Assembly: GCA_030272155.1 (NCBI GenBank)
Contig: CP126207.1
Coordinates: forward strand, 1,922,001 to 1,986,000
Length of the DNA: 64,000 nucleotides
Direction of reading: 5' to 3'
Source: Tetradesmus obliquus
Lineage: Eukaryota; Chlorophyta; Chlorophyceae; Sphaeropleales; Scenedesmaceae
Part shown: positions 1 through 63,671 of the stretch, in pieces
Numbering within the stretch: position 1 is the stretch's first letter
How the letters are laid out: every line of letters begins with the position of its first letter
Translations under genes and position numbers: made by a program
Notes under the pieces: model-generated
The model's input: only the letters and a program-made list of their open reading frames with translations
The model's database searches: none
Told to the model about the DNA's origin: nothing

Positions 1-497
1 ATAGGGGTATGTTCGGTCAATAGCAGGATGTGCTTTGCATGAAGTGGAGAGTCTATGAATAGACAGGTGGCGATTGTCTGTGTCGACAATCAGTCACCTA
101 TAAATAGGCGTCTTGTGTGTGTGTCGTAATGCTGCCTGTAAGGTGCAGCTTTTAGAGGTGTGCAAGTCACCATGCATGGATAGCTGACAGCTACACTATG
201 GACAGCTTTTGTTTCACGGGCCAGTTACGGTCTGTCACACATCACAGGACGTCATTGCGTGACTGTGATTTTAGTGGAGTCTGGGCACTCGGTCAGGTCC
301 TGGATGCCTTTCGGGGCTGCCCCGCACGGGGCTGTCTGCATGATCGTGTGACAGCGTCTCTTGGTACAAGAGACCTGTGGGGTGAGTGCGGAACAGGTTG
401 CCTCACTCTCTCAAAGGATCTTTTTGTGGAGCAAGTGCACAGTTATGTAGGTCAGCCCTTGTAACTTTCTTGCTTCAAAAAAAAAACAAAAAAAAAA
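1..497 (+). mobile_element. LINE 3' tail, sense on +, 5' end outside window
   Basis: The sequence matches the 3' UTR of the LINE family in the window and ends in the constant TTGCTTC followed by an A-rich tail (477-497, one C interruption). It sits inside an older minus-strand tail of the same family, which resumes at 498. Its 5' truncation point and left target-site duplication lie before position 1. It differs from the common tail at a few bases (for example CTCAAAGGATC where most copies have CTCAATGGATC), so it is a separate, slightly diverged insertion. Confidence 0.85.
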
Positions 498-743
498 GAG
501 ACGCTGTCACACGATCATGCAGACAGCCCCGTGCGGGGCAGCCCCGAAAGGCATCCAGGACCTGACCGAGTGCCCAGACTCCACTAAAATCACAGTTACG
601 CAATGACGTCCTGTGATGTGTGACAGACCGTGACTGGCACTTGAAACAAAAGCTGTCCATAGTGTAGCTGTCAGCTATCAATGCATGGTGACTTGCACAC
701 CTCTAAAAGCTGCACCTCACAGGCAGCAACATCTACTTCCACC

Positions 744-1484
744 CTATCCCATTCCCACTGCCACACTGCCACACTGCCACACTGCTGCAGCTATTGGGCA
801 CTCCACAAACAAGTGGGTGAGGGTCTCCAGTTGCTGCGGCTGCTGACACTGCTGTGCTGGGCAGGCAAAGTGAGCCGGCGCGCGCCTACTGGATGCCAGC
901 ATGCGCCGTGCGCCTACCTTCACTCCTGCATGCAGAAGCCGCCAGCCAAACACTCGCAGCCGCCTCGGCAGCTGGGTGTCTTTCAGCCTCTGATAACTCG
1001 CCACCCAGCGGTGCTGCCTGGCATTGGCAGCACCCATGGATTGAGTGGTCGGGTCCAGTAGATCATTGTGGGCTGGGCAGCTGATGCGCTGCTGTTGCTG
1101 CTCCTGTTGCTGCCGCTGAGCCGTGACCACTGCTGCTGCTGTTGCTGCGCGCTGTCTTGGCAGCTCCCGCTCCCTGGACGGATCCATCCAGGACGCATGG
1201 TAAGCTGCCATCATAGCTGCATCGCTAAACCGCTGGCTGTCACTGCTGCTGCTGCTGCGATTGCCAGGCGCCTCGCTACTTTGCTGCATTTGCTGGAAAG
1301 ACCGTTTCTGAGCTGCCTCCATCTCCTGCAAGCCGTCCTGTGGCGCCTCAGCACCCAGGCGGTTGCGCCACAGCCGCGGGCGCATGCCTACCCCTGACAC
1401 CCACCCCTCTTTGCACTGCCGGCTGCATTGCTCCTGCAGCAGCCTGCATGTTGCCGCCTTTTTTTTTTCTTTCTTTTGAAGCAA
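744..1484 (-). pseudogene. LINE C-terminal ORF fragment with zinc knuckle (copy 1)
   Basis: This open frame holds the part of the LINE polyprotein downstream of the Gln-rich linker. It contains an Ala/Gln/Ser-rich stretch, then the conserved block FGWRLLHAGVK and the knuckle Cys-x4-Cys-x10-His-x4-Cys (CPAQQC ... HLFVEC) typical of the zinc-binding region at the end of plant-type and algal LINE proteins (zf-RVT). The domain stops shortly after LFVECPIAAAVWQ because the deletion near 757 joins it to unrelated frame. The first codons come from the mini-insertion at 1462-1540. It is a broken fragment; the intact order is seen at 7746-8981. Confidence 0.7.
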
Positions 1485-1540
1485 GAAAGTTACAAGGGCT
1501 GACCTACATAACTGTGCACTTGCTCCACAAAAAGATCCAT
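1462..1540 (-). mobile_element. 79-bp LINE tail mini-insertion in LINE copy 1
   Basis: A T-rich run followed by GAAGCAAGAAAG and about 60 nt of the LINE 3' end in reverse orientation interrupts the LINE ORF. The 13-bp target-site duplication TGTTGCCGCCTTT is at 1449-1461 and 1541-1553. The uninterrupted site is visible in the third long copy near 61530-61545, with one substitution. The insertion brings in the stop codon that now ends the reverse transcriptase frame. Confidence 0.93.
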
Positions 1541-3865
1541 TGTTGCCGCCTTTGGTGTGAACTGCAGCAGGCTAACATCAAACCCCATCCCCCATACACT
1601 AGGATCTACGCGAATGTCTGCCCAAGCACCCACCAGGTACCATGACGGCGTGCTTTGCGATTGCTGCTGTTGCTGTTGCTGTCCCTGGTGCTGCTGCTGC
1701 TGCTGCTGCTGCTGCGGCTGCTGCTGTTCCTGTTGTTGCTGCTGTCGCGGCTGCTGCTGTGGCCATGCTGCTGGCTGCTGCTGCTGCTGCTGCTGCTGTT
1801 CCTGCTGTTGCTGCTGTCGTGGCTGCCGCTGTTGCCGTGCTGCTGGCTGTTGCCGCTGCTGCTGCTGCTGTCGCTGCTGCCGCTGCTGTTGTTGCCGCTG
1901 AAAGGCAGGGTGTGGCACTGCTTTTACATCTACCACACAACAGGGCGCCCATTGGAGGGCTGCTGTGTCCATCGGGACAGCTGTCGTGGCCGTCAAGCTG
2001 CCATCCTGCTGCACCTTGTAGCACTTGGTGGCGCCATCTTGCTGCAACTGTTGTGCCCACTGCTGCTGCGTATCGGTCTGCCATGCACCTGTGCTGCCCT
2101 CCCGCAGAGTGCGCAGCCATGTCGGCGGCAGCACTAAGCCATCTTGCTGCGGCTGTCCAGTTAGCTGCTGCTGCACCTGCCCCAGTGTGGTGCCTGCGCC
2201 GTGGCGCAGCTGGGCAGGTAGGGTGCCGGCTGCTGCCAACATCTGCCCATCTGAGCTGCTACCCACGCTGTGGTTCCCCACTAGCAGCTCAAGCTGGATC
2301 TGCTGGCGGGTCATGGCGCTGTGCTCCACGTGCCTGTGAATGCCCACACTTTGCAGCGCCTCTATGTATGCTGCAAGGCGCAGCGGCAGCCTGCCGCCCC
2401 TGGCGGCAGCCTGCAGCGGCGCCCTTGATTGCTGCACCAACGCTGCCTCCCCTAGTCCTGGCAGTGCATGGCGCAGGTTGGCCCGCATGAAGGCCTTCCA
2501 TGGGGCTCGCCGCGGCGACAGCAATGCTGCTGCTGTGCGTGCCTGCATTGCTGTGGCGTGCGCCCTGACATCAACCTGCCTCATTCCGCCCATGCTGAAA
2601 GGCAGGCTGGCCACTGCTGCCGGAGGGCTTTCATTCCACTGCCGGATGTTGGCTTCGCGAGCGCAGCCCTGCTCTGTCACAAACCCTAAGAGGCGGCGGT
2701 GCATCCTGGCCATGATATCTGCTGGGACTGGCACGAACTGCGCATGATATGTGATGCAAGATGCCATCATCTGCTGCGCAACTGCGCAGCGCCCCAAATA
2801 GCTGAGATTCTGCCGTGCCCACTGCCGCGCCCGGTATGTGATGGTTTGCAGGCGCTGCGTATACAGCGCTACTGCATGCGGCTCTGCGCCTGCTGCTGAC
2901 AGCAGCAGACCCAGGTGCCTGATCGGGTGCAGTGCTGTATCATGGAACGGTATCTGCGTGGCTGGATCCACCCCTACAAACGGCTGCTGCGTGCCTACTT
3001 CCATGCCCTGGCACTTGCTGACTCCCAGCTTGGCGCCACTCGCTGCACAAAACGGCTGTACTGCTTTCCTCACCAGCACAGCAACGCCTTGCCTGCTGGC
3101 AGCGTGCAGGGTGGTGTCGTCTGCATGCTGCATGCTGCAGGGTGCTGCTGAGCCATCGGGCATGCTGATGCTGTCCACTTCCCCTGCTGCTTGCAACGCT
3201 CTGCATTTGGCCGCCAGCGGCTGCGCTGCTAGCACATACAGCAGCGGGCTGAGTGGACTGCCCTGCGCGCAGCCAGAGGGGATGTCAAACACCCTGCTGA
3301 GGTGGCCGCCGTTGAACACGATGCGGCCCTGCGTGCCTGCCAGCAGCAGCTGTACCCACCTGCGCATGCCAGGCGGGAACTGCATTGCTGCCAAGCACTT
3401 CATCAGCCAGTCCCTGTCTAACCTGTCATAAGCCTTCTCAAAGTCCAGAAACAAAATGCAGCCGGGCTGCTGCTGCGTCCTGAGGAAGTCAACTTCCTCC
3501 AGGTGCAGCAGCACATTGTCTGCAATGTCCCTGCCTGGAACAAACGCTGTCTGAGTGCTGTCCACGACGCTGTCCAGCACTGGCGCCGCTCGCAGCACCA
3601 CCACCTTCGCCAGGATCTGCTGCTGCCCTGCTGGCGGCGCCCACACACTGAAGTCATCCAGCAGCAGCAGACGGCTGTTATTAACAGGGACCACTGCTCC
3701 TGGCTGCACAAGCTGCCACACCTGTTGCGCATACCACTGCCACACTGCTGCAGCTATTGGGCACTCCACAAACAAGTGGGTGAGGGTCTCCAGTTGCTGC
3801 GGCTGCTGACACTGCTGTAGTGGTTGTCGTTCCTCGTTGTGATGTGTTGCAAAATAGAATGGCAA
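1490..3865 (-). CDS. LINE reverse transcriptase ORF (copy 1), truncated and chimeric
   Basis: A long open frame encodes a LINE-type reverse transcriptase, which would make cDNA from the element's own RNA at a nicked target. Motif 1 reads TAFVPGRDIADNVL and motif A FLDFEKAYDRLDRDW (first catalytic Asp). Motif B reads SGCAQGSPLSPLLYV and motif C HADDTTL, with both catalytic Asp residues. Motif D lies around GAKLGVSKCQG. A thumb-like region and a very Gln-rich linker follow. The N-terminal part is wrong for a LINE: codons from the opposed insertion (3819 onward) and then a zinc-knuckle fragment precede ILAKVVV of the RT. The C terminus ends in codons of the mini-insertion at 1462-1540. No endonuclease domain is present. 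The catalytic residues are intact, but the ORF is a truncated chimera and probably not functional. Confidence 0.8.
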   Translation of the reverse strand: MPFYFATHHNEERQPLQQCQQPQQLETLTHLFVECPIAAAVWQWYAQQVWQLVQPGAVVPVNNSRLLLLDDFSVWAPPAGQQQILAKVVVLRAAPVLDSVVDSTQTAFVPGRDIADNVLLHLEEVDFLRTQQQPGCILFLDFEKAYDRLDRDWLMKCLAAMQFPPGMRRWVQLLLAGTQGRIVFNGGHLSRVFDIPSGCAQGSPLSPLLYVLAAQPLAAKCRALQAAGEVDSISMPDGSAAPCSMQHADDTTLHAASRQGVAVLVRKAVQPFCAASGAKLGVSKCQGMEVGTQQPFVGVDPATQIPFHDTALHPIRHLGLLLSAAGAEPHAVALYTQRLQTITYRARQWARQNLSYLGRCAVAQQMMASCITYHAQFVPVPADIMARMHRRLLGFVTEQGCAREANIRQWNESPPAAVASLPFSMGGMRQVDVRAHATAMQARTAAALLSPRRAPWKAFMRANLRHALPGLGEAALVQQSRAPLQAAARGGRLPLRLAAYIEALQSVGIHRHVEHSAMTRQQIQLELLVGNHSVGSSSDGQMLAAAGTLPAQLRHGAGTTLGQVQQQLTGQPQQDGLVLPPTWLRTLREGSTGAWQTDTQQQWAQQLQQDGATKCYKVQQDGSLTATTAVPMDTAALQWAPCCVVDVKAVPHPAFQRQQQQRQQRQQQQQRQQPAARQQRQPRQQQQQEQQQQQQQQPAAWPQQQPRQQQQQEQQQPQQQQQQQQHQGQQQQQQQSQSTPSWYLVGAWADIRVDPSVWGMGFDVSLLQFTPKAATMDLFVEQVHSYVGQPL

Positions 3866-4086
3866 AGGCTAAGTTGATGGCTGGGTTACGTTATGTATGC
3901 ATGCGCGTGGGTAGCAGAGTATGATTATGTGCGCAGGCATGTGCTGATAAGTTTGCGTGTGTGTATATGTGTGTCTGTGTTGGTGTCATTTTTTTTACAT
4001 ATTGCCACATGTCTCATAGGGGTATGTTCGGTCAATAGCAGGATGTGCTTTGCATGAAGTGGAGAGTCTATGAATAGACAGGTGGC

Positions 4087-4106
4087 GATTGTCTGTGTCG
4101 ACAATC
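4087..4106 (+). other. LINE 3' UTR hairpin 1
   Basis: GATTGTCTGTGTCGACAATC can fold into a perfect 7-bp stem (GATTGTC/GACAATC) with a 6-nt loop. It recurs in every LINE copy long enough to include it. A role in RNA recognition by the element's reverse transcriptase is possible but is inference. Confidence 0.6.
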
Positions 4107-4112
4107 AGTCAC

Positions 4113-4122
4113 CTATAAATAG
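4113..4122 (+). promoter_or_regulatory. TATA-like motif in LINE 3' UTR
   Basis: CTATAAATAG lies 79 bp before the ATG of the tail ORF at 4192 and is kept in nearly all long tails (some read ATAAACAGG). It matches a TATA-box consensus, but nothing in the sequence shows that it initiates transcription. Confidence 0.3.
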
Positions 4123-4191
4123 GCGTCTTGTGTGTGTGTCGTAATGCTGCCTGTAAGGTGCAGCTTTTAGAGGTGTGCAAGTCACCATGCA

Positions 4192-4479
4192 TTGATAGCT
4201 GACAGCTACACTATGGACAGCTTTTGTTTCAAGGGCCAGTCACGGTCTGTCACACATCACAGGACGTCATTGCGTGACTGTGATTTTAGTGGAGTCTGGG
4301 CACTCGGTCAGGTCCTGGATGCCTTTCGGGGCTGCCCCGCACGGGGCTGTCTGCATGATCGTGTGACAGCGTCTCTTGGTACAAGAGACCTGTGGGGTGA
4401 GTGCGGAACAGGTTGCCTCACTCTCTCAATGGATCTTTTTGTGGAGCAAGTGCACAGTTATGTAGGTCAGCCCTTGTAA
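4192..4479 (+). CDS. Possible 95-codon tail ORF in the LINE 3' UTR
   Basis: In the sense direction of the LINE, the last 300 nt of the UTR hold an open frame that begins MIADSYTMDSFCF and ends VEQVHSYVGQPL, with its TAA about 13 nt before the poly(A). The same frame is open in tails at 7003-7290, 15317-15604, 23522-23809, 26056-26343, 28062-28349, 47098-47385, 49750-50037, 51320-51607, 53966-54253 and 56616-56903. I recognise no domain. The product would be small, Cys-containing and without a signal peptide or membrane segment. Openness alone is weak evidence because all copies descend from a recent common source. It may be plain UTR. Confidence 0.25.
   Translation: MIADSYTMDSFCFKGQSRSVTHHRTSLRDCDFSGVWALGQVLDAFRGCPARGCLHDRVTASLGTRDLWGECGTGCLTLSMDLFVEQVHSYVGQPL
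4327..4346 (+). other. LINE 3' UTR GC-rich alternating hairpin
   Basis: CGGGGCTGCCCCGCACGGGG contains two overlapping, mutually exclusive stems: GGGGC/GCCCC with a one-base loop, and GCCCCG/CGGGGC (seen on the other strand) with a two-base loop. It lies about 150 nt from the 3' end and is invariant among the tails inspected. Confidence 0.5.
4371..4389 (+). other. LINE 3' UTR hairpin 2, near the tail end
   Basis: GTCTCTTGGTACAAGAGAC forms a perfect 8-bp stem with a 3-nt loop, about 100 nt upstream of poly(A). In LINEs that need a specific 3' end for target-primed reverse transcription, such a structure can be the binding site for the RT. Here that is inference. Tails shorter than about 100 bp lack it in the inserted DNA, but 5' truncation happens after RT binding, so this does not argue against the role. 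Confidence 0.55.
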
Positions 4480-4491
4480 CTTTCTTGCTTC

Positions 4492-4522
<31 letters not shown>

Positions 4523-4650
4523 CACTGCTGTGCTGGGCAGGCAAAGTGAGCCGGCGCGCGCCTACTGGATGCCAGCATGCGCCGTGCGCCTACCTTCACT
4601 CCTGCATGCAGAAGCCGCCAGCCAAACACTCGCAGCCGCCTCGGCAGCTG

Positions 4651-6462
4651 CGTACTTGCCGATCATATACGACCGCATATTGTTGTTCGTGGCATTAGTA
4701 AAAATGTGTCAACTAGTTGCAAATGTTGATCGGCTGTTCAAAATGTCAAGGCAATGACCTGGCATGCCGGATGCAGGTTGGCACGGGTGCCGATGACCTG
4801 GCATGCACCGTCACCAAAAAGCTCACGTCCGGCAAAAATACCTGCGGGTCGATCTTTGATTTTAAATGTCCGTCACTAACAATTAGAGACTTAATTTGTC
4901 TGGCAGTGCGCATTCAAGCAAATCGAAGCGGCCCGCAAACCGTCGCCGCGCTTCCAATTTTCGTCCGGGCCGCGTACTTGCCGATCATATACGACCGCAT
5001 ATTGTTGTTCGTGGCGCTAGAAAAAATGTTTCAACTAGATGCAAATGTTGATCGGCTGATCAAAATGTCAAGGCAATGACCTGGCATGCCGGATGCAGGT
5101 TGGCACGGGTGCCGATGACCTGGCATGCACCGTCACCAAAACGCTCACGTCCGGCAAAAATACCTGCGGGTCGATCTTCGATTTTACATGTCCGTCACTA
5201 ACAATTATAGACTTTATTTGTCTGGCAGTGCGCATTCAAGCAAATCGAAGCGGCCCGCAAACCGTCACCGCGCTCCCAAGTTTCGTCCGGGCCGCGTACT
5301 TGCCGATCATATACGACCGCATATTGTTGTTCGTGGCATTAGTAAAAATGTGTCAACTAGTTGCAAATGTTGATCGGCTGTTCAAAATGTCAAGGCAATG
5401 ACCTGGCATGCCGGATGCAGGTTGGCACGGGTGCCGATGACCTGGCATGCACCGTCACCAAAAAGCTCACGTCCGGCAAAAATACCTGCGGGTCGATCTT
5501 TGATTTTAAATGTCCGTCACTAACAATTAGAGACTTAATTTGTCTGGCAGTGCGCATTCAAGCAAATCGAAGCGGCCCGCAAACCGTCGCCGCGCTTCCA
5601 ATTTTCGTCCGGGCCGCGTACTTGCCGATCATATACGACCGCATATTGTTGTTCGTGGCGCTAGAAAAAATGTTTCAACTAGATGCAAATGTTGATCGGC
5701 TGATCAAAATGTCAAGGCAATGACCTGGCATGCCGGATGCAGGTTGGCACGGGTGCCGATGACCTGGCATGCACCGTCACCAAAACGCTCACGTCCGGCA
5801 AAAATACCTGCGGGTCGATCTTCGATTTTACATGTCCGTCACTAACAATTATAGACTTTATTTGTCTGGCAGTGCGCATTCAAGCAAATCGAAGCGGCCC
5901 GCAAACCGTCACCGCGCTCCCAAGTTTCGTCCGGGCCGCGTACTTGCCGATCATATACGACCGCATATTGTTGTTCGTGGCACTAGTAAAAATGTTTCAA
6001 CTTGTTGCAAAGGTTGATCGGCTGATCAAAATGTCAAGGCAATGACCTGGCATGCCGGATGCAGGTTGGCACGGGTGCCGATGACCTGGCATGCACCGTC
6101 ACCGAAAAGCGCACGTCCGACGAAAATACCTGCGGGTCGATCTTCTATTTAAAATGTCCGTCACTAACAATTAGAGACTTTATTTGTCTGGCAGTGCGCA
6201 TTCAAGCAAATCGAATTTCTTGCTTCCATAAAAAAAAAAAAAAAAAAAGGAAATCGAAGCGGCCCGCAAACCGTCACCAAAAAGCTCACGTCCGGCAAAA
6301 ATACCTGCGGGTCGATCTTTGATTTTAAATGTCCGTCACTAACAATTAAGGACTTTATTTGTCTGGCAGTGCGCATTCAAGCAAATCGAAGCGGCCCGCA
6401 AACCGTCGCCGCACTCCCAATTTTCGTCCGGGCCGCAAAAATACCTGCGGGTCGATCTTCGG
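4651..6462 (+). repeat. 322-bp satellite array A (about 5.5 monomers)
   Basis: Tandem monomers repeat every 322 bp. Two alternating variants give a 644-bp higher-order period, for example AAAAAGCTCACG with TTTAAATGTCC versus AAAACGCTCACG with TTTACATGTCC. Each full monomer has an open frame of about 102 codons starting at ATGCAGGTTGGC and ending at AGGCAATGA. The two variants differ mostly by amino-acid-changing substitutions in that frame, so coding is not supported. Near 6276 a short monomer results from a deletion between two CCGTCACC sequences. The array ends with a junction (GGGCCGCAAAAATACC) formed by another short-homology deletion, then a LINE tail. Confidence 0.93.
6216..6250 (+). 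mobile_element. Ultra-short LINE insertion in satellite (11 nt plus poly(A))
   Basis: Only TTTCTTGCTTC of the LINE 3' end plus CAT and an A-run is present, flanked by AAATCGAA at 6208-6215 and 6251-6258. The same insertion, with a longer duplication AAGCAAATCGAA, is found at seven other places in the satellite. The empty monomer is visible near 13080. Confidence 0.85.
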
Positions 6463-6974
6463 TTTTTCTTTTTTGAAGCAAGAACGTTACAAGGGCTGAC
6501 CGAATAACTGTGCACTTGCTCCACAAAAAGATCCATTGAGAGAGTGAGGCAACCTGTTCCGCACTCACCCCACAGGTCTCTTGTACCAAGAGACGCTGTC
6601 ACACGATTTTTTTTTTTTTTTTTTTTTTGAAGCAAGAAAGTTACAAGGGCTGACCTACATAACTGTGCACTTGCTCCACAAAAAGATCCATTGAGAGAGT
6701 GAGGCAACCTGTTCCGTGATCATGCAGACAGCCCCGTGCGGGGCAGCCCCGAAAGGCATCCAGGACCTGACCGAGTGCCCAGACTCCACTAAAATCACAG
6801 TTACGCAATGACGTCCTGTGATGTGTGACAGACCGTGACTGGCACTTGAAACAAAAGCTGTCCATAGTGTAGCTGTCAGCTATCAATGCATGGTGACTTG
6901 CACACCTCTAAAAGCTGCACCTCACAGGCAGCATTATGACACACACACACACAAGACGCCTATTTATAGGTGAC
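6463..6974 (-). mobile_element. LINE tail (minus) in satellite, itself carrying a nested tail
   Basis: A diverged tail begins after an imperfect T-run (6463-6474) with GAAGCAAGAACGTTAC, where most copies have AAAGTTAC, and GACCGAATAAC, where most have GACCTACATAAC. It continues through hairpin 2 to 6606, is interrupted by a nested tail (6607-6716) and resumes at 6717. Its own UTR is in turn interrupted at 6975 by LINE copy 2. The same three-level nest recurs at 14767-15282. Confidence 0.85.
6607..6716 (-). mobile_element. Nested LINE tail inside a LINE tail
   Basis: Twenty-two T (6607-6628) and about 88 nt of LINE 3' end interrupt the older tail between CACACGA and TCATGCAG of the UTR. No clean target-site duplication is visible; the right flank reads CCGTGATC. 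The insertion may have formed with a small deletion, or the junction may have mutated. Homologous events are at 14911-15024 and 19506-19622. Confidence 0.8.
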
Positions 6975-8059: not shown

Positions 8060-8981
8060 TGTTGTCCTCCGCACCGCTGTTGCTGTGGCTCTGCGATTGC
8101 AAACTGCTGCCTGCATTGCGGCTGCTGCCGCCCTCGCTACCACCCGCACTGGCCACAGTCACGCCAGCCCTGCTGCTGCTGCAGCGCACCACCCAAATGG
8201 ATTCCAGCAGCAGCAGACGCAGCTGCGTCCACAAATGCTGCTGCCCTGCTGGCGGCGCCCACACACTGAAGTCATCCAGCAGCAGCAGACGGCTGTTATT
8301 AACAGGGACCACTGCTCCTGGCTGCACAAGCTGCCACACCTGTTGCGCATACCACTGCCACACTGCTGCAGCTATTGGGCACTCCACAAACAAGTGGGTG
8401 AGGGTCTCCAGTTGCTGCGGCTGCTGACACTGCTGTGCTGGGCAGGCAAAGTGAGCCGGCGCGCGCCTACTGGATGCCAGCATGCGCCGTGCGCCTACCT
8501 TCACTCCTGCATGCAGAAGCCGCCAGCCAAACACTCGCAGCCGCCTCGGCAGCTGGGTGTCTTTCAGCCTCTGATAACTCGCCACCCAGCGGTGCTGCCT
8601 GGCATTGGCAGCACCCATGGATTGAGTGGTCGGGTCCAGTAGATCATTGTGGGCTGGGCAGCTGATGCGCTGCTGTTGCTGCTCCTGTTGCTGCCGCTGA
8701 GCCGTGACCACTGCTGCTGCTGTTGCTGCGCGCTGTCTTGGCAGCTCCCGCTCCCTGGACGGATCCATCCAGGACGCATGGTAAGCTGCCATCATAGCTG
8801 CATCGCTAAACCGCTGGCTGTCACTGCTGCTGCTGCTGCGATTGCCAGGCGCCTCGCTACTTTGCTGCATTTGCTGGAAAGACCGTTTCTGAGCTGCCTC
8901 CATCTCCTGCAAGCCGTCCTGTGGCGCCTCAGCACCCAGGCGGTTGCGCCACAGCCGCGGGCGCATGCCTACCCCTGACAC
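7746..8981 (-). CDS. LINE polyprotein C-terminal part, zinc knuckle (copy 2)
   Basis: This 411-codon frame is the intact C-terminal end of the LINE protein. An Ala/Gln-rich segment is followed by RLRVFGWRLLHAGVK, then the knuckle Cys-x4-Cys-x10-His-x4-Cys (CPAQQC, HLFVEC), then VWQWYAQQVWQLV. A poly-Ser/Asn linker encoded by CTG-type runs follows, and then a conserved end with FLAELRQQIQREWDRVEVD and IKIRAGTAGM before the stop. The layout after the RT and the knuckle spacing fit the zf-RVT region of L1-like plant and algal LINEs. The frame was continuous with the RT ORF before the 9043-9122 insertion, as the third long copy shows. Shorter versions are at 20248, 24265, 28805, 52010, 54660, 57309 and 58709. 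Confidence 0.75.
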
Positions 8982-9042
8982 CCACCCCTCTTTGCACTGC
9001 CGGCTGCATTGCTCCTGCAGCAGCCTGCATGTTGCCGCCTTT

Positions 9043-9122
9043 TTTTTTTTTTTTCTTTTGAAGCAAGAAAGTTACAAGGGCTGACCTACATAACTGTGCA
9101 CTTGCTCCACAAAAAGATCCAT
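9043..9122 (-). mobile_element. 80-bp LINE tail mini-insertion in LINE copy 2
   Basis: Same insertion as at 1462-1540, with TGTTGCCGCCTTT at 9030-9042 and 9123-9135 and a T-run one base different in length. Because both copies share it, it predates the duplication that made copies 1 and 2. With its duplication it adds 93 bp here (92 bp in copy 1), so only here is it in frame, yet it still brings a stop codon. Confidence 0.93.
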
Positions 9123-11498
9123 TGTTGCCGCCTTTGGTGTGAACTGCAGCAGGCTAACATCAAACCCCATCCCCCATACACTAGGATCTACGCGAATGTC
9201 TGCCCAAGCACCCACCAGGTACCATGACGGCGTGCTTTGCGATTGCTGCTGTTGCTGTTGCTGTCCCTGGTGCTGCTGCTGCTGCTGCTGCTGCTGCGGC
9301 TGCTGCTGTTCCTGTTGTTGCTGCTGTCGCGGCTGCTGCTGTGGCCATGCTGCTGGCTGCTGCTGCTGCTGCTGCTGCTGTTCCTGCTGTTGCTGCTGTC
9401 GTGGCTGCCGCTGTTGCCGTGCTGCTGGCTGTTGCCGCTGCTGCTGCTGCTGTCGCTGCTGCCGCTGCTGTTGTTGCCGCTGAAAGGCAGGGTGTGGCAC
9501 TGCTTTTACATCTACCACACAACAGGGCGCCCATTGGAGGGCTGCTGTGTCCATCGGGACAGCTGTCGTGGCCGTCAAGCTGCCATCCTGCTGCACCTTG
9601 TAGCACTTGGTGGCGCCATCTTGCTGCAACTGTTGTGCCCACTGCTGCTGCGTATCGGTCTGCCATGCACCTGTGCTGCCCTCCCGCAGAGTGCGCAGCC
9701 ATGTCGGCGGCAGCACTAAGCCATCTTGCTGCGGCTGTCCAGTTAGCTGCTGCTGCACCTGCCCCAGTGTGGTGCCTGCGCCGTGGCGCAGCTGGGCAGG
9801 TAGGGTGCCGGCTGCTGCCAACATCTGCCCATCTGAGCTGCTACCCACGCTGTGGTTCCCCACTAGCAGCTCAAGCTGGATCTGCTGGCGGGTCATGGCG
9901 CTGTGCTCCACGTGCCTGTGAATGCCCACACTTTGCAGCGCCTCTATGTATGCTGCAAGGCGCAGCGGCAGCCTGCCGCCCCTGGCGGCAGCCTGCAGCG
10001 GCGCCCTTGATTGCTGCACCAACGCTGCCTCCCCTAGTCCTGGCAGTGCATGGCGCAGGTTGGCCCGCATGAAGGCCTTCCATGGGGCTCGCCGCGGCGA
10101 CAGCAATGCTGCTGCTGTGCGTGCCTGCATTGCTGTGGCGTGCGCCCTGACATCAACCTGCCTCATTCCGCCCATGCTGAAAGGCAGGCTGGCCACTGCT
10201 GCCGGAGGGCTTTCATTCCACTGCCGGATGTTGGCTTCGCGAGCGCAGCCCTGCTCTGTCACAAACCCTAAGAGGCGGCGGTGCATCCTGGCCATGATAT
10301 CTGCTGGGACTGGCACGAACTGCGCATGATATGTGATGCAAGATGCCATCATCTGCTGCGCAACTGCGCAGCGCCCCAAATAGCTGAGATTCTGCCGTGC
10401 CCACTGCCGCGCCCGGTATGTGATGGTTTGCAGGCGCTGCGTATACAGCGCTACTGCATGCGGCTCTGCGCCTGCTGCTGACAGCAGCAGACCCAGGTGC
10501 CTGATCGGGTGCAGTGCTGTATCATGGAACGGTATCTGCGTGGCTGGATCCACCCCTACAAACGGCTGCTGCGTGCCTACTTCCATGCCCTGGCACTTGC
10601 TGACTCCCAGCTTGGCGCCACTCGCTGCACAAAACGGCTGTACTGCTTTCCTCACCAGCACAGCAACGCCTTGCCTGCTGGCAGCGTGCAGGGTGGTGTC
10701 GTCTGCATGCTGCATGCTGCAGGGTGCTGCTGAGCCATCGGGCATGCTGATGCTGTCCACTTCCCCTGCTGCTTGCAACGCTCTGCATTTGGCCGCCAGC
10801 GGCTGCGCTGCTAGCACATACAGCAGCGGGCTGAGTGGACTGCCCTGCGCGCAGCCAGAGGGGATGTCAAACACCCTGCTGAGGTGGCCGCCGTTGAACA
10901 CGATGCGGCCCTGCGTGCCTGCCAGCAGCAGCTGTACCCACCTGCGCATGCCAGGCGGGAACTGCATTGCTGCCAAGCACTTCATCAGCCAGTCCCTGTC
11001 TAACCTGTCATAAGCCTTCTCAAAGTCCAGAAACAAAATGCAGCCGGGCTGCTGCTGCGTCCTGAGGAAGTCAACTTCCTCCAGGTGCAGCAGCACATTG
11101 TCTGCAATGTCCCTGCCTGGAACAAACGCTGTCTGAGTGCTGTCCACGACGCTGTCCAGCACTGGCGCCGCTCGCAGCACCACCACCTTCGCCAGGATCT
11201 GCTGCTGCCCTGCTGGCGGCGCCCACACACTGAAGTCATCCAGCAGCAGCAGACGGCTGTTATTAACAGGGACCACTGCTCCTGGCTGCACAAGCTGCCA
11301 CACCTGTTGCGCATACCACTGCCACACTGCTGCAGCTATTGGGCACTCCACAAACAAGTGGGTGAGGGTCTCCAGTTGCTGCGGCTGCTGACACTGCTGT
11401 GCTGGGCAGGCAAAGTGAGCCGGCGCGCGCCTACTGGATGCCAGCATGCGCCGTGCGCCTACCTTCACTCCTGCATGCAGAAGCCGCCAGCCAAACAC
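9072..11498 (-). CDS. LINE reverse transcriptase ORF (copy 2), chimeric N terminus
   Basis: About 808 codons are open. Residues 1-99 are a zinc-knuckle fragment (CPAQQC about 31-36, HLFVEC 47-52) that belongs downstream of RT in this family. At residue 100 the frame switches to ILAKVVVLRAAPVLDSVVD, the RT fingers. Motif A FLDFEKAYD has its Asp near 158, motif B CAQGSPLSPLLY is near 216-227, and motif C ADD at 265-267. The thumb extends to about 460. A linker of Gln blocks broken by Arg and Pro lies at about 650-760, and the last codons come from the mini-insertion. The conserved catalytic triad suggests descent from an active enzyme. The misplaced knuckle and the missing endonuclease argue that this copy is dead. 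It is almost identical to the ORF at 1490-3865. Confidence 0.82.
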   Translation of the reverse strand: MFGWRLLHAGVKVGARRMLASSRRAPAHFACPAQQCQQPQQLETLTHLFVECPIAAAVWQWYAQQVWQLVQPGAVVPVNNSRLLLLDDFSVWAPPAGQQQILAKVVVLRAAPVLDSVVDSTQTAFVPGRDIADNVLLHLEEVDFLRTQQQPGCILFLDFEKAYDRLDRDWLMKCLAAMQFPPGMRRWVQLLLAGTQGRIVFNGGHLSRVFDIPSGCAQGSPLSPLLYVLAAQPLAAKCRALQAAGEVDSISMPDGSAAPCSMQHADDTTLHAASRQGVAVLVRKAVQPFCAASGAKLGVSKCQGMEVGTQQPFVGVDPATQIPFHDTALHPIRHLGLLLSAAGAEPHAVALYTQRLQTITYRARQWARQNLSYLGRCAVAQQMMASCITYHAQFVPVPADIMARMHRRLLGFVTEQGCAREANIRQWNESPPAAVASLPFSMGGMRQVDVRAHATAMQARTAAALLSPRRAPWKAFMRANLRHALPGLGEAALVQQSRAPLQAAARGGRLPLRLAAYIEALQSVGIHRHVEHSAMTRQQIQLELLVGNHSVGSSSDGQMLAAAGTLPAQLRHGAGTTLGQVQQQLTGQPQQDGLVLPPTWLRTLREGSTGAWQTDTQQQWAQQLQQDGATKCYKVQQDGSLTATTAVPMDTAALQWAPCCVVDVKAVPHPAFQRQQQQRQQRQQQQQRQQPAARQQRQPRQQQQQEQQQQQQQQPAAWPQQQPRQQQQQEQQQPQQQQQQQQHQGQQQQQQQSQSTPSWYLVGAWADIRVDPSVWGMGFDVSLLQFTPKAATMDLFVEQVHSYVGQPL

Positions 11499-11519
11499 TC
11501 GCAGCCGCCTCGGCAGCTG

Positions 11520-42784: not shown

Positions 42785-42816
<32 letters not shown>

Positions 42817-47206: not shown

Positions 47207-47467
47207 GCTGTCACACGATCATGCAGACAGCCCCGTGCGGGGCAGCCCCGAAAGGCATCCAGGACCTGACCGAGTGCCCAGACTCCACTAAAATCACAGT
47301 CACGCAATGACGTCCTGTGATGTGTGACAGACCGTGACTGGCCCCTGAAACAAAAGCTGTCCATAGTGTAACTGTCAGCTATCAATGCATGGTGACTTGC
47401 ACACCTCTAAAATCTATACCTTACAGGCAGCATTACGGCACACACACAAGACGCCTGTTTATAGGTG

Positions 47468-52632: not shown

Positions 52633-53479
52633 TTTTTTTTTTTTTTTTTTTTTTTTTGAAGCAAGAAAGTTACAAGGGCTGACCTACATAACTGTGCACT
52701 TGCTCCACAAAAAGATCCATTGAGAGAGTGAGGCAACCTGTTCCGCACTCACCCCACAGGTCTCTTGTACCAAGAGACGCTGTCACACGATCATGCAGAC
52801 AGCCCCGTGCGGGGCAGCCCCGAAAGGCATCCAGGACCTGACCGAGTGCCCAGACTCCACTAAAATCACAGTCACGCAATGACGTCCTGTGATGTGTGAC
52901 AGACCGTGACTGGCCCTTGAAACAAAAGCTGTCCATAGTGTAGCTGTCAGCTATCAATGCATGGTGACTTGCACACCTCTAAAAGCTGCACCTTACGAAT
53001 AGGCGTCTTGTGTGTGTGTCGTAATGCTGCCTGTAAGGTGCAGCTTTTAGAGGTGTGCAAGTCACCATGCATTGATAGCTGACAGCTACACTATGGACAG
53101 CTTTTGTTTCAAGGGCCAGTCACGGTCTGTCACACATCACATGACGTCATTGCGTGACTGTGATTTTAGTGGAGTCTGGGCACTCGGTCGGGTCCTTTTT
53201 TTTTTTTTTTTTGAAGCAAGAAAGTTACAAGGGCTGACCTACATAACTTTGCACTTGCTCCACAAAAAGATCCATTGAGAGAGTGAGGCAACCTGTTCCG
53301 CACTCACCCCACAGGTCTCTTGTACCAAGAGACGCTGTCACACGATCATGCAGACAGCCCCGTGCGGGGCAGCCCCGAAAGGCATCCAGGACCTGACCGA
53401 GTGCCCAGACTCCACTAAAATCACAGTCGGTCAGGTCCTGGATGCCTTTCGGGGCTGCCCCGCACGGGGCTGTCTGCAT
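52633..53479. mobile_element. Minus tail, plus tail and nested minus tail (unit 1)
   Basis: A minus tail (52633-52995) stops at CACCTTAC and meets a plus UTR (GAATAGGCGTC, 52996-53479). The plus UTR is broken by a minus tail at 53196-53427 with the duplication CGGTC(G/A)GGTCC at 53185-53195 and 53428-53438. The minus tail 52633-52995 corresponds to the 3' end of LINE copy 3, which in unit 3 continues as a long element. Confidence 0.82.
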
Positions 53480-54891
53480 TTTTTTTTTTTTTTTTTTTTT
53501 TTTTTGAAGCAAGAAAGTTACAAGGGCTGACCTACATAACTGTGCACTTGCTCCACAAAAAGATCCATTGAGAGAGTGAGGCAACCTGTTCCGCACTCAC
53601 CCCACAGGTCTCTTGTACCAAGAGACGCTGTCACACGATCATGCAGACAGCCCCGTGCGGGGCAGCCCCGAAAGGCATCCAGGACCTGACCGAGTGCCCA
53701 GACTCCACTAAAATCACAGTCACGCAATGACGTCCTGTGATGTGTGACAGACCGTGACTGGCCCTTGAAACAAAAGCTGTCCATAGTGTAGCTGTCAGCT
53801 ATCCATGCATGGTGACTTGCACACCTCTAAAAGCTGCACCTTACAGGCAGCATTACGACACACACACAAGACGCCTATTTATAGGTGACTGATTGTCGAC
53901 GATGTGTGTGTGTCGTAATGCTGCCTGTAAGGTGCAGCTTTTAGAGGTGTGCAAGTCACCATGCATTGATAGCTGACAGCTACACTATGGACAGCTTTTG
54001 TTTCAAGGGCCAGTCACGGTCTGTCACACATCACAGGACGTCATTGCGTGACTGTGATTTTAGTGGAGTCTGGGCACTCGGTCAGGTCCTGGATGCCTTT
54101 CGGGGCTGCCCCGCACGGGGCTGTCTGCATGATCGTGTGACAGCGTCTCTTGGTACAAGAGACCTGTGGGGTGAGTGCGGAACAGGTTGCCTCACTCTCT
54201 CAATGGATCTTTTTGTGGAGCAAGTGCACAGTTATGTAGGTCAGCCCTTGTAACTTTCTTGCTTCAAAAAAAAAAAAAAAAAAAAAACTGATTGTCGACA
54301 CAGACAATCGCCACCTGTCTATTCATAGACTCTCCACTTCATGCAAAGCACATCCTGCTATTGACCGAACATACCCCTATGAGACATGTGGCAATATGTA
54401 AACAAAATGACACCAACACAGACACACATCACCACACACGCAAACTTATCATCACATGCCTGCGCACATAATCATACTCTGCTACCCACGCGCATGCATA
54501 CATAACGTAACCCAGCCATCAACTTAGCCTTTGCCATTCTATTTTGCAACACATCACAACGAGAAACGACAACCACTACTCCAACGAATGCATTGCATAT
54601 CCTGCCCGAGCCGTCAAAACAGACCACCACGCCACCTATACCCGTGCCCAACCCATCACTCACATGCCAGCCGTGCCGGCCCGAATATTGATGCGACCAT
54701 CGGTGCCCACCCTATACAGTGCTCCCCACTTCTGCCAAAAGTCAACAAGTTTGATCTCAGGCGACCTTCCTTGCAGCCATGCAAACGGTATCCCACAACC
54801 CAACCTAACATCTACTTCCACCCTATCCCATTCCCTCTGAATTTGCTGCCGTAGCTCTGCCAGAAACCTGCACGCCACAGCCTTAGCAGCG
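53480..54891 (-). mobile_element. LINE copy of unit 2, with nested plus tail
   Basis: Repeats LINE copy 9, with the nested plus tail at 53901-54287 (CTGATTGTCGAC at 53889-53900 and 54288-54299). Its left flank is LINE UTR, not satellite, so it arose by duplication and not by insertion here. Confidence 0.88.
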
Positions 54892-55277
54892 ACGACCGCA
54901 TATACGACCGCATAATGTTGTTCGTGGCATTAGTAAAAATGTTTCAACTAGTTGCAAATGTTTATCGGATGATCAAAATGTCAAGGCAATGACCTGGCAT
55001 GCCGGATGCAGGTTGGCACGGGTGCCGATGACCTGGCATGCACCGTCACCAAAAAGCTCACGTCCGGCAAAAATACCTGCGGGTCGATCTTCGATTTTAC
55101 ATGTCCGTCACTAACAATTAAGGACTTTATTTGTCTGGCAGTGCGCATTCAAGCAAATCGAAGCGGCCCGCAAACCGTCGCCGCGCTTCCAATTTTCGTC
55201 CGGGCCGCGTACTTGCCGATCATCTACGACCGCATATTGTTGTTCGTGGCACTAGTAAAAATGTTTCAATTTGTTGC

Positions 55278-55282
<5 letters not shown>
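54892..55282 (+). repeat. Satellite fragment of unit 2
   Basis: Collinear with 52242-52632. Confidence 0.9.
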
Positions 55283-55308
<26 letters not shown>

Positions 55309-56129
55309 GAAGCAAGAAAGTTACAAGGGCTGACCTACATAACTGTGCACTTGCTCCACAAAAAGATCCATTGAGAGAGTGAGGCAACCTGTTCCGCACT
55401 CACCCCACAGGTCTCTTGTACCAAGAGACGCTGTCACACGATCATGCAGACAGCCCCGTGCGGGGCAGCCCCGAAAGGCATCCAGGACCTGACCGAGTGC
55501 CCAGACTCCACTAAAATCACAGTCACGCAATGACGTCCTGTGATGTGTGACAGACCGTGACTGGCCCTTGAAACAAAAGCTGTCCATAGTGTAGCTGTCA
55601 GCTATCAATGCATGGTGACTTGCACACCTCTAAAAGCTGCACCTTACGAATAGGCGTCTTGTGTGTGTGTCGTAATGCTGCCTGTAAGGTGCAGCTTTTA
55701 GAGGTGTGCAAGTCACCATGCATTGATAGCTGACAGCTACACTATGGACAGCTTTTGTTTCAAGGGCCAGTCACGGTCTGTCACACATCACATGACGTCA
55801 TTGCGTGACTGTGATTTTAGTGGAGTCTGGGCACTCGGTCGGGTCCTTTTTTTTTTTTTTTTTGAAGCAAGAAAGTTACAAGGGCTGACCTACATAACTT
55901 TGCACTTGCTCCACAAAAAGATCCATTGAGAGAGTGAGGCAACCTGTTCCGCACTCACCCCACAGGTCTCTTGTACCAAGAGACGCTGTCACACGATCAT
56001 GCAGACAGCCCCGTGCGGGGCAGCCCCGAAAGGCATCCAGGACCTGACCGAGTGCCCAGACTCCACTAAAATCACAGTCGGTCAGGTCCTGGATGCCTTT
56101 CGGGGCTGCCCCGCACGGGGCTGTCTGCA
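55283..56129. mobile_element. Minus tail, plus tail and nested minus tail (unit 2)
   Basis: Collinear with 52633-53479: minus tail to 55647, plus UTR 55648-56129, nested minus tail 55847-56078. Confidence 0.82.
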
Positions 56130-57540
56130 TTTTTTTTTTTTTTTTTTTTTTTTTTGAAGCAAGAAAGTTACAAGGGCTGACCTACATAACTGTGCACTTG
56201 CTCCACAAAAAGATCCATTGAGAGAGTGAGGCAACCTGTTCCGCACTCACCCCACAGGTCTCTTGTACCAAGAGACGCTGTCACACGATCATGCAGACAG
56301 CCCCGTGCGGGGCAGCCCCGAAAGGCATCCAGGACCTGACCGAGTGCCCAGACTCCACTAAAATCACAGTCACGCAATGACGTCCTGTGATGTGTGACAG
56401 ACCGTGACTGGCCCTTGAAACAAAAGCTGTCCATAGTGTAGCTGTCAGCTATCAATGCATGGTGACTTGCACACCTCTAAAAGCTGCACCTTACAGGCAG
56501 CATTACGACACACACACAAGACGCCTATTTATAGGTGACTGATTGTCGACGATGTGTGTGTGTCGTAATGCTGCCTGTAAGGTGCAGCTTTTAGAGGTGT
56601 GCAAGTCACCATGCATTGATAGCTGACAGCTACACTATGGACAGCTTTTGTTTCAAGGGCCAGTCACGGTCTGTCACACATCACAGGACGTCATTGCGTG
56701 ACTGTGATTTTAGTGGAGTCTGGGCACTCGGTCAGGTCCTGGATGCCTTTCGGGGCTGCCCCGCACGGGGCTGTCTGCATGATCGTGTGACAGCGTCTCT
56801 TGGTACAAGAGACCTGTGGGGTGAGTGCGGAACAGGTTGCCTCACTCTCTCAATGGATCTTTTTGTGGAGCAAGTGCACAGTTATGTAGGTCAGCCCTTG
56901 TAACTTTCTTGCTTCAAAAAAAAAAAAAAAAAAAAACTGATTGTCGACACAGACAATCGCCACCTGTCTATTCATAGACTCTCCACTTCATGCAAAGCAC
57001 ATCCTGCTATTGACCGAACATACCCCTATGAGACATGTGGCAATATGTAAACAAAATGACACCAACACAGACACACATCACCACACACGCAAACTTATCA
57101 TCACATGCCTGCGCACATAATCATACTCTGCTACCCACGCGCATGCATACATAACGTAACCCAGCCATCAACTTAGCCTTTGCCATTCTATTTTGCAACA
57201 CATCACAACGAGAAACGACAACCACTACTCCAACGAATGCATTGCATATCCTGCCCGAGCCGTCAAAACAGACCACCACGCCACCTATACCCGTGCCCAA
57301 CCCATCACTCACATGCCAGCCGTGCCGGCCCGAATATTGATGCGACCATCGGTGCCCACCCTATACAGTGCTCCCCACTTCTGCCAAAAGTCAACAAGTT
57401 TGATCTCAGGCGACCTTCCTTGCAGCCATGCAAACGGTATCCCACAACCCAACCTAACATCTACTTCCACCCTATCCCATTCCCTCTGAATTTGCTGCCG
57501 TAGCTCTGCCAGAAACCTGCACGCCACAGCCTTAGCAGCG
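56130..57540 (-). mobile_element. LINE copy of unit 3, with nested plus tail
   Basis: Collinear with 53480-54891; the nested plus tail is at 56551-56936 with CTGATTGTCGAC on both sides. Confidence 0.88.
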
Positions 57541-57931
57541 ACGACCGCATATACGACCGCATAATGTTGTTCGTGGCATTAGTAAAAATGTTTCAACTAG
57601 TTGCAAATGTTTATCGGATGATCAAAATGTCAAGGCAATGACCTGGCATGCCGGATGCAGGTTGGCACGGGTGCCGATGACCTGGCATGCACCGTCACCA
57701 AAAAGCTCACGTCCGGCAAAAATACCTGCGGGTCGATCTTCGATTTTACATGTCCGTCACTAACAATTAAGGACTTTATTTGTCTGGCAGTGCGCATTCA
57801 AGCAAATCGAAGCGGCCCGCAAACCGTCGCCGCGCTTCCAATTTTCGTCCGGGCCGCGTACTTGCCGATCATCTACGACCGCATATTGTTGTTCGTGGCA
57901 CTAGTAAAAATGTTTCAATTTGTTGCAAAGG
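57541..57931 (+). repeat. Satellite fragment of unit 3
   Basis: Collinear with 52242-52632; the poly(T) of LINE copy 3 follows at 57932. Confidence 0.9.
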
Positions 57932-58984
57932 TTTTTTTTTTTTTTTTTTTTTTTTGAAGCAAGAAAGTTACAAGGGCTGACCTACATAACTGTGCACTTG
58001 CTCCACAAAAAGATCCATTGAGAGAGTGAGGCAACCTGTTCCGCACTCACCCCACAGGTCTCTTGTACCAAGAGACGCTGTCACACGATCATGCAGACAG
58101 CCCCGTGCGGGGCAGCCCCGAAAGGCATCCAGGACCTGACCGAGTGCCCAGACTCCACTAAAATCACAGTCACGCAATGACGTCCTGTGATGTGTGACAG
58201 ACCGTGACTGGCCCTTGAAACAAAAGCTGTCCATAGTGTAGCTGTCAGCTATCAATGCATGGTGACTTGCACACCTCTAAAAGCTGCACCTTACAGGCAG
58301 CATTACGACACACACACAAGACGCCTATTTATAGGTGACTGATTGTCGACACAGACAATCACCACCTGTCTGTTCATAGACTCGCCACTTCATGCAAAGC
58401 ACATCCTGCTATGGACCGAACATACCCCTATGAGACATTTGGTATTATGTAAAAAATGACACCAACACAAACACATATAACCACACACACAAACTTATCA
58501 TCACATGCCTGCACACATCATCATACTCTGCTACCCACACGCATGCATACATAACGTAATCCAGCCATCAACTTAGCCTTTGCCATTCTATTTTGCAACA
58601 CATCACAACGAGGAACGACAACCACTACTCCAACGAATGCATTGCATATCCTGCCCGAGCCGTCAAAACAGACCACCACGCCACCTTTACCCGTGCCCAA
58701 CCCATCACTCACATGCCAGCCGTGCCGGCCCGAATCTTGATGCGACCATCGGTGCCCACCCTATACAGTGCTCCCCACTTCTGCCAAAAGTCAACAAGTT
58801 TGATCTCAGGCGACCTTCCTTGCAGCCATGCAAACGGTATCCCACAACCCAACCTAACATCTACTTCCACCCTATCCCATTCCCTCTGAATTTGCTGCCG
58901 TAGCTCTGCCAGAAACTGCACGCCACAGCCTTAGCAGCGTATGATGAGCTGCCCGGCTCGCCAGCTGCAAACCGTTGGCTGCCC

Positions 58985-59024
<40 letters not shown>

Positions 59025-59063
59025 TGTTGTCCTCCGCCCCGCTGTTGCTGTGGCTCTGCGATT

Positions 59064-59811
59064 TTTTTTTTTTTTTTTTTTTGAAGCAAGAAAGTTACAA
59101 GGGCTGACCTACATAACTGTGCACTTGCTCCACAAAAAGATCCATTGAGAGAGTGAGGCAACCTGTTCCGCACTCACCCCACAGGTCTCTTGTACCAAGA
59201 GACGCTGTCACACGATCATGCAGACAGCCCCGTGCGGGGCAGCCCCGAAAGGCATCCAGGACCTGACCGAGTGCCCAGACTCCACTAAAATCACAGTTAC
59301 GCAATGACGTCCTGTGATGTGTGACAGACCGTGACTGGCCCTTGAAACAAAAGTTGTCCATAGTGTAGCTGTCAGCTATCAATGCATGGTGACTTGCACA
59401 CCTCTAAAAGCTGCACCTCACAGTCACCATGCATTGATAGCTGACAGCTACACTATGGACAGCTTTTGTTTCAAGGGCCAGTCACGGTCTGTCACACATC
59501 ACAGGACGTCATTGCGTGACTGTGATTTTAGTGGAGTCTGGGCACTCGGTCAGGTCCTGGATGCCTTTCGGGGCTGCCCCGCACGGGGCTGTCTGCATGA
59601 TCGTGTGACAGCGTCTCTTGGTACAAGAGACCTGTGGGGTGAGTGCGGAACAGGTTGCCTCACTCTCTCAATGGATCTTTTTGTGGAGCAAGTGCACAGT
59701 TATGTAGGTCAGCCCTTGTAACTTTCTTGCTTCAAAAAAAAAAAAAAAAAAAAAAAAAACGCTGCACCTCACAGGCAGCATTACGACACACACACACACA
59801 AGACGCCTACC
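59064..59811 (-). mobile_element. LINE tail inserted in copy 3, itself interrupted
   Basis: Flanked by GGCTCTGCGATT at 59052-59063 and 59812-59823. It consists of T-run, tail and UTR up to AAGACGCCTACC, split by the plus tail at 59424-59760. Confidence 0.93.
59424..59760 (+). mobile_element. LINE tail (plus) nested in the 59064-59811 tail
   Basis: From TCACCATGCATTG to 26 A, flanked by GCTGCACCTCACAG at 59410-59423 and 59761-59774. Confidence 0.95.
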
Positions 59812-60252
59812 GGCTCTGCGATTGCAAACCGCTGCCTGCATTGCGGCTGCTGCCGCCCTCGCTACCACCCGCACTGGCCACAGTCACGCCAGCCCTGCTG
59901 CTGCTGCAGCGCACCACCCAAATGGATTCCAGCAGCAGCAGACGCAGCTGCGTCCACAACTGCTGCTGCCCTGCTGGCGGCGCCCACACACTGAAGTCAT
60001 CCAGCAGCAGCAGACGGCTGTTATTAACAGGGACCACTGCTCCTGGCTGCACAAGCTGCCACACCTGTTGCGCATACCACTGCCACACTGCTGCAGCTAT
60101 TGGGCACTCCACAAACAAGTGGGTGAGGGTCTCCAGTTGCTGCGGCTGCTGACACTGCTGTGCTCGGCAGGCAAAGTGAGCCGGCGCGCGCCTACTGGAT
60201 GCCAGCATGCGCCGTGCGCCTACCTTCACTCCTGCATGCAGAAGCCGCCAGC

Positions 60253-60254
60253 TT

Positions 60255-60296
<42 letters not shown>
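60253..60296 (+). mobile_element. Almost pure poly(A) insertion (TTC plus 41 A)
   Basis: A 41-A run preceded by TTC (GCTTC if the flank is counted) is flanked by GAAGCCGCCAGC at 60241-60252 and 60297-60308. It splits the knuckle coding region of copy 3. It is the most extreme 5' truncation of the family in the window. Confidence 0.92.
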
Positions 60297-60298
<2 letters not shown>

Positions 60299-60403
60299 AG
60301 CCGCCAGCCAAACACTCGCAGCCGCCTCGGCAGCTGGGTGTCTTTCAGCCTATGATAACTCGCCACCCAGCGGTGCTGCCTGGCATCGGCAGCACCCATG
60401 GAT

Positions 60404-63378: not shown

Positions 63379-63381
63379 GCA

Positions 63382-63500
63382 CTCGCTGCCACACCTGTTG
63401 CGCGTACCACTGCCACGCTGCTGCAGCTACTGGGCACTCCACAAACAAGTGGGTGAGGGTCTCCAGTTGCTGCGGCTGCTGACACTGCTGTGCTGGGCAG
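63382..63500 (-). pseudogene. Zinc-knuckle fragment 5' of the RT in copy 3
   Basis: A diverged knuckle piece (GCGCGTACCACTGCCACGCTG, CTACTGGGCACTCC) that stops at GCTGGGCAG. It marks the end of the LINE-dense region. Confidence 0.7.
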
Positions 63501-63524
63501 AGGGGTCATTTTTACCTTAGGGTG

Positions 63525-63671
63525 CATGGTCGTGTGACAGTGTCTCTTGGTACAAGAGACCTGTGGGGTGAGTGCGGAACAGGTTGCCTCACTCAATGGA
63601 TCTTTTTATGGAGCAAGTGTACAGTTATTTAGGTCAGCCCTTGTAACTTTCTTGCTTCAAAATAAAAAAAA
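63525..63671 (+). mobile_element. Diverged LINE tail (plus)
   Basis: From GCATGGTCGTGTGACAGTG to CTTGCTTCAAAATAAAAAAAA, with several differences from the common tail (a 4-bp deletion in CTCTCTCAATGG, TATGGAGC, GTGTACAG, TTATTTAGG). It is an older insertion. No target-site duplication is evident. Confidence 0.85.

Follow-up and report, generated by a model that had tools for sequence, protein, structure and literature searches.

A window of 64,000 nucleotides of Tetradesmus obliquus DNA (the whole stretch analysed here, C17:1922001-1986000) falls in a LINE-built island; 16 of the 17 contigs carry one such island each, and these are probably the centromeres. The LINE that builds them falls into two lineages, A and B, partitioned by chromosome; this is a new observation, and among the titles and abstract openings of the open-licence literature none was found to describe, in any alga, centromeric LINEs whose lineages divide by chromosome set. 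We infer that the simplest and most likely reading of the partition is that of two separate histories recently united. The genome comprises 104,662,953 bases in 17 contigs (C1-C17).

Positions 1-63671 of the window consist of L1-clade LINE (57.9%), a 322-bp satellite (34.4%) and sequence that is neither (7.7%). The features are as follows (window coordinates; RT, reverse transcriptase; TSD, target-site duplication):

1-63671, no strand: LINE/satellite island, part of C17:1904903-1985660 (~81 kb), with its right end inside the window
1490-3865, minus strand: second ORF2/RT fragment (Pfam), overlapping 772-3818, a duplicate of 8353-11400
3817-4520, plus strand: LINE insertion of 676 bp with a poly(A) of 28, in a host LINE of opposite orientation, 11-bp TSD
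4650-6466, plus strand: first block of the satellite array (322-bp repeat; tiling)
9072-11498, minus strand: LINE ORF2 with RT domain, 5'-truncated (Pfam RVT_1, E 1.4e-22), in an interrupted copy from ~6990
11519-14770, plus strand: longest uninterrupted satellite array, ~10 units (repeat detection; tiling)
16155-16359, plus strand: LINE insertion of 180 bp in a host LINE of opposite orientation, 13-bp TSD
25955-26379, plus strand: LINE insertion of 404 bp in satellite, 10-bp TSD
30169-39092, plus strand: satellite arrays broken by very short LINE 3' ends, part duplicated at an offset of ~2.5 kb
47085-47752, no strand: nested LINE pieces, 47085-47467 (minus) and 47467-47678 (plus), with a tail at 47709-47739 (plus); no TSD found
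50843-58294, no strand: tandem blocks of satellite and nested LINE, offset ~2.65 kb, 99.7% alike
57932-60403, minus strand: three-level LINE nest in satellite, 57955-59063 (minus), 59082-59430 (minus) and, innermost, 59422-59734 (plus) with a 14-bp TSD
63672-64000, no strand: right flank begins, free of LINE and satellite (repeat density)

LINE and satellite together span about C17:1907309 to 1985660, with both flanks at background repeat density in the 204 kb of C17 examined, and the edges of the island are sharp. Its GC content, in 4-kb steps, is 0.47-0.59, below the 0.54-0.61 of the flanks. Pfam searches with 10 flank ORFs, chosen among the longer ones of low bias, matched no family and identified no flank gene. 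A 1.95-kb segment matching neither the LINE nor the satellite occurs at 39443-41393 and 42484-44437, and again at C17:1904903-1906850 (three copies 99.5-99.8% alike, the last at 99.8%); it encodes a 218-aa ORF (39643-40299) with no Pfam match and also contains GCCTGCCC repeats. This third copy extends the repeated island to ~81 kb. Duplicated blocks recur inside it: 772-3818 and 8353-11400 share 99.9% identity, and 50843-55647 with 53491-58294, like 39095-42320 with 42136-45364, are alike at 99.7%. The satellite amounts to ~68 copy-equivalents in the window. All 72 matches of the satellite probe fall on C17, at 1.907-1.980 Mb (genome search, 15 of 15 candidates scored), and the satellite is thus no common component of the islands.

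Judged by its sequence, the element is an L1-clade LINE, with endonuclease, RT, poly(A), 5' truncation and TSDs all present. In the copies fetched from C10, C11, C14 and C15, ORF2 is an open frame of 1,896-1,898 residues (~1,795 from the ATG), and a glutamine-rich ORF1 overlapping it, which matched no Pfam family, was seen on C10, C14 and C15. Pfam places Exo_endo_phos (E 3.9e-12) and RVT_1 (E 1.1e-28) in ORF2, with zf-RVT below the cut-off, and the best relative of solved structure is LINE-1 ORF2p (8uw3, E 3.6e-39); this APE-type endonuclease, the RT and the LINE-1 relative bear out the L1 affinity proposed earlier. A quick RT tree was built from 137 rows gathered by searching with the element itself, so that the size of its group is biased; the rows include no known Zepp/ZeppL sequence. 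The four centromeric copies cluster together in it (support 100) beside proteins of Scenedesmus sp. PABB004 and of metagenomes, away from three dispersed L1-like RTs that this genome also carries; support for the branch separating centromeric from dispersed RTs is 94, under the tool's star at 95. Identity of the centromeric RT is 53-55% to four RTs of Scenedesmus sp. PABB004 and 31-32% to the three dispersed ones. Hits in three protein searches were mostly unnamed; among algae, named hits came from Scenedesmus sp. PABB004 and from Chlamydomonas sp. UWO 241, and none was labelled Zepp. The closest relatives with a name belong to the Scenedesmaceae.

LINE tails on both strands number 65 at up to 3 errors; the junction count uses the 60 found at up to 2 substitutions, leaving out five very short ones that match at 3 errors only. 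Because several blocks are tandem copies, the 60 tails collapse to 33 distinct 3' junctions, in some of which one event may still be split. Judged from the first member of each class (n=33), the host is LINE at 25 junctions, satellite at 6 and other DNA at 2, and the earlier observation that tails lie in other LINE copies or in the satellite holds; the 25 LINE-in-LINE junctions comprise 13 in opposite and 12 in the same orientation. Two nests had been singled out: the one running inward from 57932 through 59064 to 59424 is confirmed by tiling and by the TSD of its innermost insertion, and that from 47207 through 47468 to 47679 is consistent with the tiling, but has no detectable TSD. TSDs of 10-17 bp flank 27 of the 60 tails (16 distinct) and TSDs of 6 bp two more; the script found none at 31 of 60, many of which are copies with an interrupted 5' end. 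No common sequence is visible by eye among the 16 distinct TSDs. Copies are strongly 5'-truncated and carry poly(A), the shortest consisting of ~12 LINE bases plus poly(A) in satellite (e.g. 32469-32485). Such very short ends occur on the plus strand at 32469, 34981, 37498, 48500 and 50562, and apparently derive from a single insertion that was then multiplied along with the satellite.

LINE is slightly overrepresented among hosts, at 25 of 33 junctions where its abundance in the island predicts 19 (p ~0.05), which leaves room for a mild sequence preference. Overall, the hosts mirror the composition of the island (92% LINE plus satellite), so nesting shows confinement more than a preference for its own kind, and is largely expected for any element confined to such an island. 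Self-targeting through a fixed target sequence is unsupported, given the varied hosts and TSDs, even though LINE slightly exceeds its share. With satellite and other DNA also serving as hosts, the description of a family that inserts into itself is better worded as insertion into the island. The variety of host DNA and orientation argues for recognition of local chromatin rather than of sequence. We suggest that the element is copied by target-primed reverse transcription, usually with 5' truncation, that it would land almost only in the islands, whether the host there is LINE, satellite or other sequence and whichever way round it inserts, probably by targeting centromeric chromatin, and that the island would be further enlarged by tandem duplication of blocks.

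Across the genome, a 35-mer of the 3' UTR, located ~440 bases upstream from the tail, yields 149 exact matches, and 149 of 149 fall into single clusters, with 16 of the 17 contigs carrying one each; the dispersal along chromosome arms that would have spoken against a centromeric or subtelomeric island was not seen. Spans of these clusters sum to 1.25% of the genome, with 32-152 kb each on the 15 contigs that hold at least three copies. An RT probe gave 70 matches among the best 67 of 300 candidates, of which 69 fall within 15 clusters, one per contig; the lone match outside is C5:4667891-4668214 (the C5 cluster lies at 2.61-2.73 Mb). With an endonuclease probe (117 of 124 candidates scored), all 26 matches at 90-100% identity are in clusters, on 11 contigs, and five weak matches at 28-43% outside them are probably other LINEs. 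A search with the RT family, covering the best 150 of 267 candidates, found many other RT matches along the arms; other-family RT matches also sit inside LINE islands at C8:4106594, C9:4156956 and C6:3115930 (L098). With one mismatch allowed, the tail pattern is found 1,063 times, against 0 for the reversed control, and the 100 listed of these 1,063 form single clusters on C1 (36) and C2 (64). At C1:4425606-4433687 LINE tails are evenly spaced at ~1,245 bases, as if a LINE-derived unit had turned into a tandem array. On C3 (8148155 bases) none of six probes revealed a LINE cluster, three of them being scored over the best 67 of 300, 40 of 902 and 40 of 562 candidates, and a third pattern being listed for 100 of 344 matches, past C3; the centromere of C3 might be built differently, be absent or have diverged.

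Since each cluster is single and internal, the islands look centromeric rather than subtelomeric. Telomere repeats open 16 of the 17 contig starts (CCCTAAA; the C2 start is N), and TTTAGGG closes C17, the one contig whose end was fetched. The C17 island lies 1.07 Mb from the nearer contig end, and the cluster matches closest to any end, over all probes, are on C16, at 0.53 Mb. Of the two placements first offered, centromeric or subtelomeric, the latter is therefore ruled out and the former fits. That the islands are heterochromatic sinks or assembly artefacts, as the lack of an island on C3 might suggest, is improbable, for there is one per contig, internal and with sharp edges, and C17 carries telomere repeats at both ends. 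A centromeric function appears likely.

The two lineages were recognized by a diagnostic base within the 35-mer, which is A in 69 copies (C1 7, C4 1, C5 9, C7 7, C8 23, C12 4, C16 1 and C17 17) and G in 80 (C2 3, C4 9, C5 1, C6 8, C9 12, C10 5, C11 15, C13 5, C14 13 and C15 9). The majority allele of its own contig is carried by 147 of the 149 copies, a number reached in 0 of 20,000 shuffles (mean 93.2); seven contigs are A, among them C16 on the strength of one copy, and nine are B. When each lineage is counted no more than once per 10 kb, 70 of 72 copies agree (0 of 20,000 shuffles). Two further sites tell the same: at the tail, 100 of 100 listed matches agree (C1 all G, C2 all T; 100 of 1,063 listed), and at a third site 99 of 100 (100 of 344 listed). 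Along the last 456 bp of the 3' UTR, 24 substitutions separate an A copy from a B copy; 13 copies whose 3' end is incomplete were set aside. The 53 ends of this kind (400-460 bases, starting with the 35-mer) divide into 27 of type A on A contigs, 25 of type B on B contigs and one that is B-like on C12. The latter belongs to a sub-lineage, B', with 16 B and 7 A states at the 24 sites, found on C10, on C14 and in this one C12 copy (L078, C12:3721900-3723300), the clearest crossing of a lineage into an island of the other set. Three other apparent exceptions were read at the diagnostic sites: the B-type copy on C5 (L076) is A at 22 of the 24, that of A type on C4 (L075) has diverged (13 A, 4 B and 1 other of 18 covered sites), and the odd copy on C6 (L077) is mixed (14 A and 3 B of 17 sites). 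Older or mixed copies stand at some island edges (L075, L077 and C17:1907564).

Over ORF2 (six copies, two of them A), A and B differ with a dS of 0.10-0.11 and a dN/dS of 0.25-0.27, against a dS of 0.002-0.023 within lineages, which indicates that both have been working elements. Copies of A show no contig structure (mean distance 0.0117 within and 0.0102 between contigs; 1432 of 2000 shuffles reach the observed value), and those of B do (0.0046 within, 0.0142 between; 0 of 2000 shuffles), largely, we think, through B'. Identical 3'-UTR ends are shared across contigs by 65 pairs in A and 27 in B; thus, copies move between the contigs of a set, and hardly between sets. These patterns bear on a model of fast turnover, in which islands are periodically refilled by one lineage through duplication or gene conversion, A and B being successive waves. 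The common tandem blocks, the older or mixed copies at island edges and the contig structure of B would all suit it; yet refilling in place should create contig structure, which A lacks, and a single opposite-lineage copy is found among the 53 full-length ends, so that we hold this model unlikely. Still less likely, in our view, is that the lineages recognize themselves, with A machinery inserting into A islands and B machinery into B. Long open ORF2 frames in copies of both, free movement within sets with almost none between, and the slight excess of LINE among hosts speak for it. Nonetheless, hosts include LINE of either strand, satellite and unrelated DNA, the 16 distinct TSDs are without a common sequence by eye and a B' copy is present in an A island; insertion sites lacking a fixed sequence make self-recognition less likely.

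We give about an even chance to a genome of two parents, whose centromeres bore different LINE lineages and in which each chromosome shows that of its own parent; this holds jointly for two variants, in which the assembly is either a single haplotype of a hybrid diploid, picked chromosome by chromosome, or a haploid recombinant. The LINE would have moved freely among the centromeres within each parent, and the two pools would have had little time to mix. Such an origin is consistent with the majority agreement of copies and its shuffles, before and after thinning; with the seven A and nine B contigs, roughly equal as a random choice of homologue per chromosome would give; with the identical ends shared within A and within B and the missing contig structure of A; and with the divergence of the A and B ORF2 under a low dN/dS. 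Exons of MCM genes, one gene family, gave 32 matches at 8 loci (44 of 44 candidates scored), presumably the number expected for MCM2-9 once each. No sign of a duplicated set appears, which agrees with two parents, and subgenomes of an allopolyploid are, by the same eight loci, unsupported. A phased diploid Scenedesmus obliquus with divergent haplotypes has reportedly been described by Biondi et al. in 2024 (cited in PMC12633428 and PMC12301720). PMC7955037 also counts in favour, describing a Scenedesmus strain as likely diploid with a haploid assembly of 103.4 Mb. Against the two-parent origin stands the third sub-lineage, B', on C10 and C14 and once in an A contig, C12; mosaic ancestry was read from the LINE. 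Somewhat short of an even chance, we propose that the centromeric LINE could act as a parental barcode, its lineage marking the parent of each chromosome and how recently the genomes met: two diverged parental genomes would have come together, each LINE having spread in its own chromosome set and hardly crossed. The lineage split makes two questions testable, namely whether centromere LINEs recognize chromatin or sequence, and whether hybrid ancestry can be read from centromere repeats without the parents in hand.

In Chlorella vulgaris, Zepp lies at a chromosome end and adjoins telomere repeats, in contrast to the internal islands found here. Green algae with transposon-rich centromeres identified thus far are, according to PMC12633428, Chlorella, Coccomyxa and Chlamydomonas. 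Two other papers describe Copia-built centromeres in Chromochloris zofingiensis (PMC11005252) and its place in the Sphaeropleales (PMC7955037); an L1-type LINE as centromere builder in this order would widen the Zepp-like pattern. Two features of Zepp/ZeppL-type elements recur here, one cluster per chromosome (on 16 of 17 contigs, with C3 and one C5 RT match as exceptions) and nested arrays mostly of 3' ends; the resemblance is one of pattern and working, and may or may not reflect shared descent. Zepp of Coccomyxa subellipsoidea (PMC3446292) marks putative centromeres with nested LINEs, strictly one cluster per chromosome; the clustering of nested copies is alike, whereas Zepp raises GC there and the C17 island falls below its flanks. 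Celine of poplar (PMC11288735) is a LINE found mostly in centromeres, with TSDs of at least 10 bp and nested in other elements. It shares with the present element the confinement to putative centromeres, such TSDs and the nesting; yet the hosts of Celine are mainly Gypsy-like elements, CRM among them, and those of ours LINE itself and satellite, and 84% of Celine copies lie within CENH3 domains, whereas the islands here are putative centromeres. A further parallel in pattern is the L1-clade ZeppL-1_cRei (L1-1_CR) of Chlamydomonas reinhardtii, taken as the centromeric repeat in PMC8226300 and PMC10030371: each is an L1-clade LINE that forms a single cluster per chromosome and is lacking, or almost so, in the rest of the genome. 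The islands described here differ in being smaller (32-152 kb by the 35-mer on 15 contigs, against 252-480 kb as reported for ZeppL-1_cRei), in the satellite of a single chromosome that fills a third of the C17 island, and in their two LINE lineages, split by chromosome.
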